64,000 nt of DNA from Candidatus Peregrinibacteria bacterium HGW-Peregrinibacteria-1 (GTDB lineage Bacteria > Patescibacteriota > Gracilibacteria > UBA1369 > LOWO2-01-FULL-3): assembly GCA_002839505.1 (NCBI GenBank), contig PGYE01000001.1, positions 647,995-711,994 of the forward strand, written 5' to 3'. Position numbers and translations under genes: made by a program. The notes beneath the pieces were generated by a model. It was not told the DNA's origin, did no database searches, and saw only the letters and a list, made by a program, of their open reading frames with translations. This document shows, piece by piece, positions 4,249 to 32,616 of the stretch (position 1 is its first letter; every line of letters starts with the position of its first letter).

Positions 4249-4287
4249 GACTATTGATAATCACTTTGTGTCATTCTGATTACGTCG

Positions 4288-4461
4288 AGCGATCATGTAT
4301 TACGGGTGTACAATCTTATTTTGTTTGGGCGTATCGGAACCTTTGCGGGCCGGTGCCGAAAGCAGTGAGGCGAGCAAAGGCGATATCTGAGGTGCAATTT
4401 CCCGCTGGGGAAATTGACGCCGTCCCAAGAAGAATAAGATTTCCACCCGCCCTTAATCGCT
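4288..4461 (+). ncRNA. candidate structured RNA / dispersed palindromic element, copy 1
   Basis: ~92% identical to 31849-32027 over the first 154 nt; closing helix agcgat/atcgct, helix aatcttatt/aataagatt, tggg/ccca, cctttgc/gcaaagg, perfect hairpin caatttccc-gctg-gggaaattg. Transcription and strand unproven. Confidence 0.6.
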
Positions 4462-4516
4462 GAAAGCAAAAAAATATAGTGAGGATTATTCCACCCCCTA
4501 AAACAGCCGACCAACA

Positions 4517-4550: not shown

Positions 4551-4570
4551 GCCTATAAATGTGCTATAAT
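4543..4570 (+). promoter_or_regulatory. extended -10 promoter for the VirD4/TraG-like gene
   Basis: TGcTATAAT at 4562-4570 with a weak -35, 28 nt before ATG 4598. Confidence 0.5.
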
Positions 4571-4597
4571 AAAAAGAAAACAAAATTAAACAAATCC

Positions 4598-7201
4598 ATG
4601 ACAGGATTCATCAACTCACCATTCATTCAGTTTCTGATCAACAACCCTATCAAGAGCCTACTGTACCTAGTTCTCATATTTGTCCTGCTCAAACTATCCC
4701 TGTGGCTTCTCAGGAACATATACAGATATAAAGACTCCAAGAATCTCGTATTCATGCAGATAACATTGCCTCGAGATGACTCCACCAAAGACCGCGAAAA
4801 AGAAAACGAAAAAGACTTTCGCGAGAAAATATCGGTCATGTCACAGCTATATCGAAGTTTAAATGAAACCAGGGAGTTAAATTTCGCCAACCTCCTAAAG
4901 GTTAAAATCCTAAAACACAACATATTTACTTTTGAGCTAGTTGCCGAAAAGGAGACAGTTAACTTCTATGTGACAACGCCAGCCTACTACCAAAGTATCG
5001 TAGAGAAGCAGATCACGACCTATTATTCGGGAGCCAATATCGACATTCTAAAGCAACCTTATGATTTTGCTCCAGACGGTAACAAATTCAAAGGCTTCTT
5101 TGGCTATCTGCAAAATGAAAACTTTTTCCCGATCAAGACCTACAAAATAGTGGAAAACGACCCGTTAAACAGTCTGACCAACATTTTTTCAAAACTCACC
5201 AAGGACGAAACCGCTGTCATTCAATTGGCAATAAGGCCCCAGAGTCCCAAATGGAGCAAAAAAGCCGAAAAATTTGGTGACACCTATTTCAAGGGTAAGA
5301 AGAACAGCCGCTTTAAAATCCCAGTACTGGGCCCTATTTTTAATGTTTTTAAAGGAGTGCTGCTGGGGTATGAAAAGATGGATAAACCCGAATCCTCGGA
5401 AGGAGGTGGCTTCGTCAGAATGCTCCAAGCTAAGGAAGAAGTTGCAAAGAGAATTGGTGAAAAGGCCTCTCAAGCCGGATTTGATACCGTCATCCGAATG
5501 GTGGCATCTGCCAAAACCGAACAGAGAGCAGAAGAAATTGTCAACAGCACCATCGTCTCCTTTGGGCTATTTAAGGACGAACTGTCAAATTGGATACAGA
5601 CCAAGCGTGTACTCCTAATAGATGCAACAAATGATAAATGGATGAAATTCGCATTCAAGCACCGCCTAATGGACAACAGAATGCTATTTATTGGAGAAAA
5701 AAAATCACTAATGGCGGAAGATGAACTATCAAGCATTTTCCATTTTCCACATAGCCGCTACAACTCTGCTCCGACAATCACATGGCTCGACTACAAAGTA
5801 CTGCCACCACCCGCCAACATGCCAAAAACCGGAATCTTATTAGGCAACAACACCTATCGCGGAGAAGAAACACAAGTACGCTTCATGAAACAAGATCGAT
5901 CTCGCCACCATTACATAATAGGTAAATCCGGAAGTGGTAAGTCTGCCCTTCTTTCATTTATGGCGAGACAAGATATCATTAACGGTGAAGGAGTCTGTGT
6001 GATTGACCCCCACGGAGACCTGGTGGACGACATTCTAAAATACATCCCAGCCTCACGAGCTAAAGATGTCATCATATTTGATCCTGCTGATACCGAAAGA
6101 CCAATGTCCATCAACATGCTGGAAGCCAAGACTTCCGCCCAACAAGACCTCGCATCCTCACAGGCAACTGAAATATTCATCAAGCTGTTTGGCGACGAAA
6201 TCTTCGGGCCCCGAATTCAGCACTATTTTAGAAACGCCTGCTTAACCCTAATGGAAGACCAAGAAGAAGGAGCAACCTTGATCGATGTCCCTCGTATATT
6301 CACGGACGACGCCTTCCTTAAATACAAAGTCAAAAAAGTCAGAAACCCCGTCGTCAAATCATTCTGGGAACATGAATATGCCAACACCGGAGATCGCGAA
6401 AGACAAGAAATGATCCCATACTTCAGCTCGAAGTTTGGTCCGTTTATTACGAATTCAATCATGCGTAATACCATAGGACAGGCCAAATCATCATTCAACT
6501 TCCGTGAAATCATGGACGAAGGCAAAATACTTCTCGTCAAATTATCAAAAGGAGTCGTCGGAGATCTCAACACACAACTCCTCGGTCTGGTAATGGTCGC
6601 CCGTATTCAAATGGCCGCCATGTCCCGTGCCGATATCCCGGAAGAACAACGACGCGACTTCTTCTTATATGTAGATGAATTCCAGAACTTTGCCACCGAC
6701 AGCTTCTCTTCAATCCTATCAGAAGCCCGAAAATACCGGTTGAACCTCATCATGGCCCACCAATACATCAACCAACTAGTTGTCAACAAATATGGCAACA
6801 CCTCTACTCAAATCCGCGACGCCGTATTCGGTAACGTTGGTACGATGTCCTCATTTAAAGTCGGAGCCGAAGATGCCGAATACCTCAGCAAAGAATACGC
6901 TCCACTACTCACTGAGCAAGACATCATCGGAATATCAAACTACAAAATGTACATGAAACTCAATATTAACAACACCACATCAAGACCATTCTCCGTCAAC
7001 ACCATCTGGGATACCACTGGTAAAAACGAAGAGCTCGCTAAAAAGATCAAACAATTATCACGAATCAGAAATGCGCGTAAGTCCGAATTTGTCGAACAAG
7101 AAATCACCAATAGAATCGGAATCGACATGGAGGAAGAATCAAAGAAAGAAGCAAACAATAAAAACCCAGACCCCACCCCAAACCCTCCGCCCCAAACCTA
7201 A
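4598..7201 (+). CDS. VirD4/TraG-family type IV secretion/conjugation ATPase, membrane anchored
   Basis: N-terminal TM; Walker A IIGKSGSGKSAL; VIDPHGDLVDDIL; Walker B FFLYVDEFQNF. Confidence 0.85.
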   Translation: MTGFINSPFIQFLINNPIKSLLYLVLIFVLLKLSLWLLRNIYRYKDSKNLVFMQITLPRDDSTKDREKENEKDFREKISVMSQLYRSLNETRELNFANLLKVKILKHNIFTFELVAEKETVNFYVTTPAYYQSIVEKQITTYYSGANIDILKQPYDFAPDGNKFKGFFGYLQNENFFPIKTYKIVENDPLNSLTNIFSKLTKDETAVIQLAIRPQSPKWSKKAEKFGDTYFKGKKNSRFKIPVLGPIFNVFKGVLLGYEKMDKPESSEGGGFVRMLQAKEEVAKRIGEKASQAGFDTVIRMVASAKTEQRAEEIVNSTIVSFGLFKDELSNWIQTKRVLLIDATNDKWMKFAFKHRLMDNRMLFIGEKKSLMAEDELSSIFHFPHSRYNSAPTITWLDYKVLPPPANMPKTGILLGNNTYRGEETQVRFMKQDRSRHHYIIGKSGSGKSALLSFMARQDIINGEGVCVIDPHGDLVDDILKYIPASRAKDVIIFDPADTERPMSINMLEAKTSAQQDLASSQATEIFIKLFGDEIFGPRIQHYFRNACLTLMEDQEEGATLIDVPRIFTDDAFLKYKVKKVRNPVVKSFWEHEYANTGDRERQEMIPYFSSKFGPFITNSIMRNTIGQAKSSFNFREIMDEGKILLVKLSKGVVGDLNTQLLGLVMVARIQMAAMSRADIPEEQRRDFFLYVDEFQNFATDSFSSILSEARKYRLNLIMAHQYINQLVVNKYGNTSTQIRDAVFGNVGTMSSFKVGAEDAEYLSKEYAPLLTEQDIIGISNYKMYMKLNINNTTSRPFSVNTIWDTTGKNEELAKKIKQLSRIRNARKSEFVEQEITNRIGIDMEEESKKEANNKNPDPTPNPPPQT

Positions 7202-13902: not shown

Positions 13903-13977
13903 CGCGGGGTAGAGCAGTGGCAGCTCGTCGGGCTCATAACCCGGAGGTCGAAGGTTCGAATCCTTCCCCCGCAACCA
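13903..13977 (+). tRNA. tRNA-fMet (CAT), CCA encoded
   Basis: Cloverleaf; C1-A72 mismatch; GGG/CCC anticodon-stem pairs typical of initiators; GTTCGAAT; ACCA end. Confidence 0.9.
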
Positions 13978-13990
13978 ACAAACATCCTTC

Positions 13991-14067
13991 GTCAGGGTAG
14001 CTCAGTTGGTGAGAGCGCCGGATTCATAACCCGGAGGTCGGGAGTTCAAATCTCCCCCTTGACACCA
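13991..14067 (+). tRNA. tRNA with CAT anticodon (elongator Met or lysidine Ile2), CCA encoded
   Basis: GTCAGGG/CCTTGAC acceptor, ttCATaa loop, GTTCAAAT T-loop, CCA. Confidence 0.85.
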
Positions 14068-30994: not shown

Positions 30995-31666
30995 TTACTT
31001 ACAAGCGCTGGAAACCTTCTCTGTCATATAAGACAAAGACTTCAACGCATCATCATTAGCCGGTATTGGATAAGCTATTCCAGAAGGATCAGCATTTGAA
31101 TCCACCAATGCTACCACCGGAATTTTCATTTTAATAGACTCTTGAACGGCAATTTTATCACGCACCACATCAACAACAAATACCGCATCCGGAAGGTCTG
31201 ATAAATTCTGCACACCCCCAAGAGAAGCCTTAAGCTTAACTATCTGCTTTTTCAAAGTATTAGCCTCCTTTTTTGTGAATTTTTCGAATTCACCGGACGC
31301 CTCTTGCTCTTCTAGATCTGTTAAATACTTAACACGAGCCTTGATAGTCTTAAAGTTAGTCAAAAGCCCAGGTATCCAGCGGGAAACCACATAAGGCATA
31401 TTAGCGCTTTTAGCCGCTTCCTCAACTAGCTTCAAAGATTGAGGCTTAGTACTAATAAACAAAACTTTTTTTCCTTCCTTTGACAGTTTACTCAAAAACT
31501 GCAAAGCATCTTCAAGCATCGTCACGGTATGCTCTAGATTAATAACATGGACACCACTTTTTTCACCAAAAAGGTATTTTTTCATTCGTGGATTCCACTT
31601 CTGCGTACGATGCCCGACATGCACTGCATTCTCGAACATTTCTTTGATTGAGCTTTTTGTAGCCAT
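30995..31666 (-). CDS. rpsB: 30S ribosomal protein S2 (uS2)
   Basis: VHVGHRTQKWNPRMKKYLFGEKSGVHVINLEHT, RWIPGLLTNF. Confidence 0.97.
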   Translation of the reverse strand: MATKSSIKEMFENAVHVGHRTQKWNPRMKKYLFGEKSGVHVINLEHTVTMLEDALQFLSKLSKEGKKVLFISTKPQSLKLVEEAAKSANMPYVVSRWIPGLLTNFKTIKARVKYLTDLEEQEASGEFEKFTKKEANTLKKQIVKLKASLGGVQNLSDLPDAVFVVDVVRDKIAVQESIKMKIPVVALVDSNADPSGIAYPIPANDDALKSLSYMTEKVSSACK

Positions 31667-31848
31667 AATCCTTGTGTTTTACATCCCTCCCATATTGATT
31701 TGCGTCATTCTTTAAACCATATAAATATAATTCAAAGCAGGATTCCGCAAGCTAAGGAAAGAACTGAAATATAAAGTGCGAAAAATCTATATCAAAAAAA
31801 CACCTAAAGCAAGGGAAAAGTTATCCCGAAGCCATCACGATTAAGCCG

Positions 31849-32027
31849 AGCGATCATGTATTACGGGTGTGCAATCTTATTCTGCCTGGGCGTATCGGAG
31901 CCTTTGCGGGCCGGTGCCGAACAAAGTGAGGCGAGCAAAGGCGAGATCTGAGGTGCAATTTCCCGCTGGGGAAATTGACACCGTCCCAAATAGAATAAGA
32001 TTGCACACCAAAGCCCACTTAATCGCT
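31849..32027 (+). ncRNA. candidate structured RNA / dispersed palindromic element, copy 2
   Basis: Second copy of 4288-4461; perfect 18-bp helix ggtgtgcaatcttattct (31866-31883)/agaataagattgcacacc (31992-32009); cctttgc/gcaaagg; caatttccc-gctg-gggaaattg. Confidence 0.65.
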
Positions 32028-32091
32028 GAGAGCAAAATTAAGTATGGGGAAAATTACCTCAGGGCGAGAATTACCTTTAACATTAAAATGC

Positions 32092-32120
32092 TTGCTACAA
32101 ACAGATAAAAACATTATAAT
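32092..32120 (+). promoter_or_regulatory. promoter of the RsbW-like/STAS/PrsW operon
   Basis: TTGCTA -17 nt- TATAAT, 23 nt before ATG 32143. Confidence 0.7.
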
Positions 32121-32142: not shown

Positions 32143-32616
32143 ATGAGCCCTCAGGACGGGACCACAAAAATAACGATTACACTGCCCACAAACGCCTATT
32201 TTATATCGGGTATTCGTGATTTTACTATCAACATGATCAGACACTCTACCAATTTTCCGCCTAAATGGGCCTTTAGATTTCAATCCGTAGTTGATGAACT
32301 CTGCAACAACGCCATTGAACACGGTTCCAGCAACGGGAGTGAAATACGAATAATTTTTGCACATAAAAAAGATGAATACCTAGAGATATCCGTCGAGGAT
32401 ACCGGCACCGGGACCAGCAAAATCAGCGCTGAAGAACTAAAAGAGATCTACGAGAAGAAAAAATCAGTCACCCAACCCTTCGCCGGAATCCGCGGCAGAG
32501 GACTGTCCAAAATAGTAGGGGAGTGGACCGACGAGGTACACTTTGCCAACCGACCAGAAGGAGGATTAAAGGTCACTGTTCGGAAATACATTGGGAAAAC
32601 CACCGAAAACAAATAA
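32143..32616 (+). CDS. RsbW/SpoIIAB-like HATPase (anti-sigma kinase family)
   Basis: VVDELCNNAIEHGSSNGSEIRI, ISVEDTGTGTSK, GRGLSKIVGEWTDEV. Confidence 0.85.
   Translation: MSPQDGTTKITITLPTNAYFISGIRDFTINMIRHSTNFPPKWAFRFQSVVDELCNNAIEHGSSNGSEIRIIFAHKKDEYLEISVEDTGTGTSKISAEELKEIYEKKKSVTQPFAGIRGRGLSKIVGEWTDEVHFANRPEGGLKVTVRKYIGKTTENK

Follow-up and report, generated by a model that had tools for sequence, protein, structure and literature searches.

Small palindromic repeats occur widely among bacteria, and to our knowledge little is known about how they move. The ERIC and bcr1 repeats are short, non-coding, dispersed intergenic sequences with long inverted ends and a strong predicted fold, and group IIC introns target hairpins or terminators at the ends of genes. 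REP and REPIN sequences are intergenic palindromes that lie mostly between unidirectional and convergent genes and tolerate G-T pairs; the REP units measure 20-40 bp, recognition as a single strand has been demonstrated for a GTAG REP, and the CGTC-tagged REPs, with stems of 5-13 bp and loops of 4-5 nt, are without a known transposase (PMC3733652). The BOX, RUP and SPRITE repeats of Streptococcus pneumoniae insert into one another and cluster (PMC3049150; PMC10969869). Such composite small repeats and the REP-type palindromes are the nearest kinds to the two elements described here, termed A and B.

The window, the whole 64,000-nucleotide stretch analyzed here, corresponds to positions 647995-711994 of the chromosome (G000:C1) and contains two composite copies of A and B. 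A tandem pair of adjacent tRNA-Met genes with the anticodon CAT is also present at 13903-14067. The features of both copies and their surroundings are as follows, in window coordinates unless marked as genome positions.

30995-31666, minus strand: rpsB, the divergent upstream neighbor of copy 2, as context (PF00318, E 9.4e-81).
31838-31861 (genome 679832-679855), plus strand: partial 5' half of element B, enclosing A of copy 2 (92% to positions 35-58 of B5).
31866-32009, plus strand: element A, copy 2 (P1 31866-31884/31991-32009, P2 31895-31951, P3 31952-31982; covariance model R1, 173.8 bits).
31866-31883, plus strand: 5' arm of the perfect 18-bp helix of copy 2.
31992-32009, plus strand: 3' arm of the perfect 18-bp helix of copy 2.
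32012-32059 (genome 680006-680053), plus strand: 3' half of element B, enclosing A of copy 2 (92% to B3).
32115-32120, plus strand: TATAAT, -10-like box of the operon downstream of copy 2, outside the element.
32143-32616, plus strand: gene for an RsbW-like ATPase, downstream context of copy 2 (PF13581, E 4.5e-11).
4265-4300 (genome 652259-652294), plus strand: 5' half of element B, around copy 1.
4305-4447 (genome 652299-652441), plus strand: element A, copy 1 (covariance model R1, 149.1 bits).
4452-4488 (genome 652446-652482), plus strand: 3' half of element B, around copy 1.
4559-7201, plus strand: TraG/VirD4-like gene, downstream context of copy 1 (PF10412, E 1.2e-10).

The perfect 18-bp helix that an earlier, sequence-only reading had reported for copy 2 is present with exact coordinates, ggtgtgcaatcttattct at 31866-31883 pairing with agaataagattgcacacc at 31992-32009. 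The predicted RNA fold of 31849-32027 reached -85 kcal/mol, compared to -52.7 ± 4.3 kcal/mol for 200 shuffles, none of which was as low (z -7.5). Copy 1 had rightly been recognized as a relative in the same orientation, sharing 91% identity over 164 nt (4278-4441). The TATAAT box at 32115 lies 105 nt beyond the 3' arm of copy 2, and the one at 4565 about 118 nt beyond copy 1. Element A has a long stem, P1, leading to a three-way junction with an arm, P2, and a hairpin, P3. The reported hairpin is real but forms only the inner part of an A+B composite, as the homology continues into B; the earlier reading had overlooked this second element, the way the two are nested and the single orientation shared by all copies. 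Intact B, found elsewhere in this genome, likewise consists of a long stem leading to a three-way junction with two hairpins. The A and B units comprise 130-160 nt each.

A genome-wide search yielded about 18 A/B loci, including the two in the window, which are irregularly spaced between 77 and 948 kb of the 998-kb chromosome. The flanking DNA is unrelated among these loci, with the exception of one pair of neighboring paralogous genes, in line with the initial impression of a multi-copy, mobile-looking element. That the two copies arose from one segmental duplication, as the presence of just two within the window could suggest, is refuted by the number of loci and their unrelated flanks, and we assign this origin practically no probability.

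To describe the arrangement of the copies, A and B were each split into a 5' half, a core and a 3' half. The two elements alternate strictly at all loci, up to B(A(B(A))). Both window copies have the order B5-A5-core-A3-B3, and the other orders observed were A5-B5-core-B3-A3, B5-A5-B5-core-B3-A3-B3 and B5-A5-B5-A5-core-A3-B3-A3, with some halves absent through decay. The insertions of B in A form one junction class of 10 copies, where the left junction follows GGTGCC and the right junction precedes AAGGCGAG wherever the 3' half is intact. The insertions of A in B fall into three junction classes, indicating that nesting occurred at least three times. Two B-only loci, at 77280 and 770685, contain short A remnants and look like B(A) composites from which A has been mostly deleted.

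Based on published descriptions, A and B resemble BOX, RUP and SPRITE in being small, intergenic, composite modular repeats with RNA-like folds, and as in this class their modules are combined in orders that vary between scattered intergenic sites. In contrast to the tandem modules of BOX (A-Bn-C), A and B are complete elements nested in each other's tips. They differ further from all three repeats in an orientation locked to the chromosome strand, and in a fold and loops that are kept across the order while the stem sequences are fully turned over. The likeness to the CGTC REPs consists in a GCGTC motif around the junction of A in the relatives and in the shared lack of a known transposase. 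Nevertheless, A and B do not belong to the REP/REPIN sequences, the CGTC type included, as they form three-way junctions of 130-160 nt, the GCGTC motifs flanking the A junction on both sides are direct and not inverted repeats, and the genome contains no RAYT (Y1) gene (no PF01797 match). With insertion-sequence-derived MITEs, ERIC and bcr1 they share short length, non-coding character, dispersed intergenic positions, long inverted ends and a strong predicted fold, and long outer arms, as terminal inverted repeats, are present in all intact A/B copies. They differ in having no terminal inverted repeat sequence conserved across genera; the searches for Y1_Tnp and RVT_1 revealed no parent insertion sequence, and the two comparison sites in the relatives no clear target-site duplication, so that A and B may or may not belong to the MITEs. 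A preference for hairpins at gene ends is shared with the group IIC introns. A group II intron or retroelement was rejected, as the genome has no reverse transcriptase, there is no Rfam intron match, and A and B are far too short.

No Rfam family matched the element at gathering score, and the sub-threshold matches to RT-3 (15.7 bits, cut-off 40.5), MIR8007 (38.3 bits, cut-off 195) and snoRNAs were dropped as far below their cut-offs. A DNA-level search of 59 relatives returned nothing outside the genome of origin, and the exact 22-nt A core had no match beyond this genome in a scan of genome_contigs and viral_contigs; the relatives were reached by covariance models alone. Counting the genome of origin, these models detected A in 7 genomes from 4 genera and B in 19 genomes of the order, and a broader B model detected it in 26 of the 353 genomes of the class, all belonging to one order. 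Copy numbers in the relatives are at least the figures given, as 8 candidates per genome were scored in the large scans. A two-loop B pattern run against 85,000 genomes matched 15 stretches, all named Peregrinibacteria, Peribacteria or Gracilibacteria, and gave 0 matches in viral contigs. The named hosts of the family are Peregrinibacteria/Peribacteria. A and B are a previously unlisted family across one order of tiny uncultured bacteria.

Across 24 diverse copies of B, 49 of 49 pairs had changed on both sides and 94.7% of the cells were paired, compared to 38-45% for slid controls, and for A in the relatives 46 of 53 pairs had changed on both sides; these counts are inflated by fitting the alignments to the structure of the model, but the effect is still far above both controls. 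The stem sequences of B are not conserved, whereas its loops are, with GTACANGYTA present in 64 of 71 copies and a first loop of the CATG type in the majority. Across the relatives, conservation is lowest in the outer arms. Structural variants were also observed: an A copy with an additional hairpin next to the junction (L081:8955-9135, G014), and B copies of two genera with a two-hairpin insertion within the first hairpin (L098, L099 and L101; G086/G087).

We asked which strand folds by Watson-Crick-only folding, counting the isolated mismatches on the element strand. For B in the relatives, 65 G.T mismatches were observed versus 18 A.C mismatches, with G.T in excess in 7 genera, in deficit in 1 and equal in 4 (p 0.02); the asymmetry was not significant for A, nor for the copies of the window's own genome alone. 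Because the C-rich, A-rich composition would favor A.C, this excess suggests that the element strand of B is under selection as a folded single strand, either RNA or single-stranded DNA. Arm-to-arm copying during replication may also explain the matched changes of the arms without any RNA, though on its own it would not account for the G.T excess.

These properties could reflect a structured small RNA family, trans-acting or protein-binding, that is made from the element strand and was expanded by duplication. The conserved hairpin loops, the total covariation of the stems and the G.U-like tolerance on the element strand would all be expected of it. Yet the position of the elements is independent of the direction of transcription, no conserved promoter of their own was found, the outer stems are tolerated at any sequence and length, nested and truncated copies are frequent, and for an RNA the standard pairs include few G-U, making this origin unlikely.

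A special tie to the promoters of accessory operons, as proposed from the two window copies, found no support. The A/B contexts in this genome (++ 9, -+ 7, +- 3) are close to those of background gaps with a length of at least 100 nt (++ 9, -+ 12, +- 2, -- 3). The missing -- contexts were considered as a sign of coupling to transcription and dropped, as such contexts make up just 3 of 26 in the background. At 7 loci the elements begin 0-17 nt past the upstream stop codon, and they usually end 43-84 nt ahead of the next start codon, thus occupying the gap from the stop codon to the next promoter. Because the contexts resemble the background, the promoter proximity would be the leftover of neutral DNA packed between genes. 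In the relatives, B lies at gene 3' ends adjoining stop codons, in 24 convergent, 36 tandem and 5 divergent gaps, compared to 25, 90 and 71 empty gaps no shorter than 100 nt (p 5e-7); divergent promoters are underrepresented among its positions. Apart from synteny, different A/B loci have no neighboring genes in common.

A cis-acting leader, attenuator or terminator for the adjoining genes would be consistent with this adjacency to stop codons in the relatives and with the location of copies 1 and 2 upstream of promoters. This same location, however, places the window element outside the leader, and with an orientation independent of gene direction, contexts equal to the background and no shared neighbors beyond synteny we regard a cis-regulator as very doubtful.

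We compared occupied sites in the genus g3 among four species with common synteny (G002, G020, G025 and G028). The site upstream of recA is occupied by one B type in G002 and G028 and by a different type in G025; in G020 there are 14 nt in its place. In G028 the 3' half of the second type is retained behind the first type, so that one B copy has replaced another. This replacement took place inside an older flanking inverted repeat, TTTTTTCTAAAAT...ATTTTTAGAAAAAA. At a second site, G020 contains a 91% copy of the first recA-site type where G002 has an apparent remnant of a B 3' arm, and at a third site both G020 and G028 have a copy, the arms of which changed in concert. Together, these sites indicate that B copies persist for a time, move or convert, and then decay. 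The MITE scenario raised at the outset is neither established nor dismissed by these sites: copies move, but no clear target-site duplication was seen at the two comparison sites. Both of these 'empty' sites are scarred or carry remnants, neither being clean, so loss and ectopic conversion could account for part of the turnover. The retention of some B copies at orthologous sites between species, with co-changed arms, argues against a mobile element and also fits a host function.

In the genome of origin, every match to A or B is on the plus strand, apart from short self-palindromic echoes, and this strand is C-rich in 27 of 27 stretches sampled across the 998 kb (skew -0.06 to -0.42). A one-signed skew is known for some members of the Microgenomates, where it was interpreted as mostly one-directional replication (PMC7143001), and a normal skew was reported for complete Peribacteria genomes (PMC4736985); in the literature examined we found no report of Peregrinibacteria with a one-signed GC skew over the whole chromosome. 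In the relatives, 53 of 71 B copies are on the C-rich strand, rising to 28 of 34 where the absolute skew is at least 0.1. The genus means of orientation versus skew are negative in 10 of 13 cases (p 0.03), and orientation is independent of transcription (++ 18, -- 21). One exception to the orientation rule consists of two oppositely oriented B copies 1.8 kb apart (L135:8985-10954, G025:C30). The 16S gene of the genome of origin is on the opposite, G-rich strand.

An orientation that is fixed on a chromosome of one-signed skew, and that in the relatives tracks skew and not transcription, could also mark a functional chromosomal site whose element strand folds as single-stranded DNA in replication, such as a site of lagging-strand initiation, a fork site or a segregation site. 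The single-strand asymmetry of B and the copies maintained at orthologous sites would agree with such a role. Against it, no copy is detectable in the majority of genomes in the order and class (B in 26 of 353), sister species differ by the loss and replacement of copies, and the spacing in the genome of origin is irregular; furthermore, with the 16S gene on the other, G-rich strand, the element strand would be the lagging strand and not its template. We therefore consider a functional site of this kind improbable.

The reading we favor, and hold to be moderately probable, is a non-autonomous composite mobile family, in which A and B settle at hairpin tips with an orientation set by the direction of replication. 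Each element would fold as one single strand, with the long stem leading to the three-way junction and its two hairpins, and a new copy would settle at the tip of a pre-existing hairpin, replacing the old tip. The tips targeted would be those of A for B, those of B for A or, again for B, that of an older intergenic hairpin, and repeated settling would build Russian-doll composites, which would spread and then decay by loop deletions. The location on one strand would follow from an effect of replication direction on either insertion or survival, and the intergenic location from this being the space tolerated by selection. The folded strand may serve as the transposition substrate, presumably moved by an enzyme acting in trans.

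As candidates for this mobilizer, a Y1 transposase and a reverse transcriptase were both rejected, since neither has a match in the genome of origin (PF01797 and PF00078, respectively) and neither tracks the element in the order. Two genes near B copies in the relatives were observed along the way: a XerC-like tyrosine recombinase gene 76 nt upstream of one copy, a single case (L084:3243-4224, G020:C4), and a fragment of a reverse-transcriptase gene (PF00078) about 5 kb from another (L090:16722-17309, G028:C7).

More tentatively, A and B might represent a single-strand mobile class whose machinery recognizes the three-way-junction fold and not terminal sequences. Insertion into existing hairpin tips would then be repeatable without limit, the fork would set the orientation on a chromosome apparently replicated mostly one way, and the mobilizer would be neither a Y1 transposase nor a reverse transcriptase.

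The A/B family joins features that are open to testing, namely the repeated nesting at hairpin tips, the strand-fixed orientation and a branched fold found order-wide despite the turnover of its stems. If the proposed mechanism is true, the family would be a hairpin-targeting single-strand mobile element that uses an enzyme not yet known, and the orientation of A and B would allow the direction of replication in Peregrinibacteria to be read independently.
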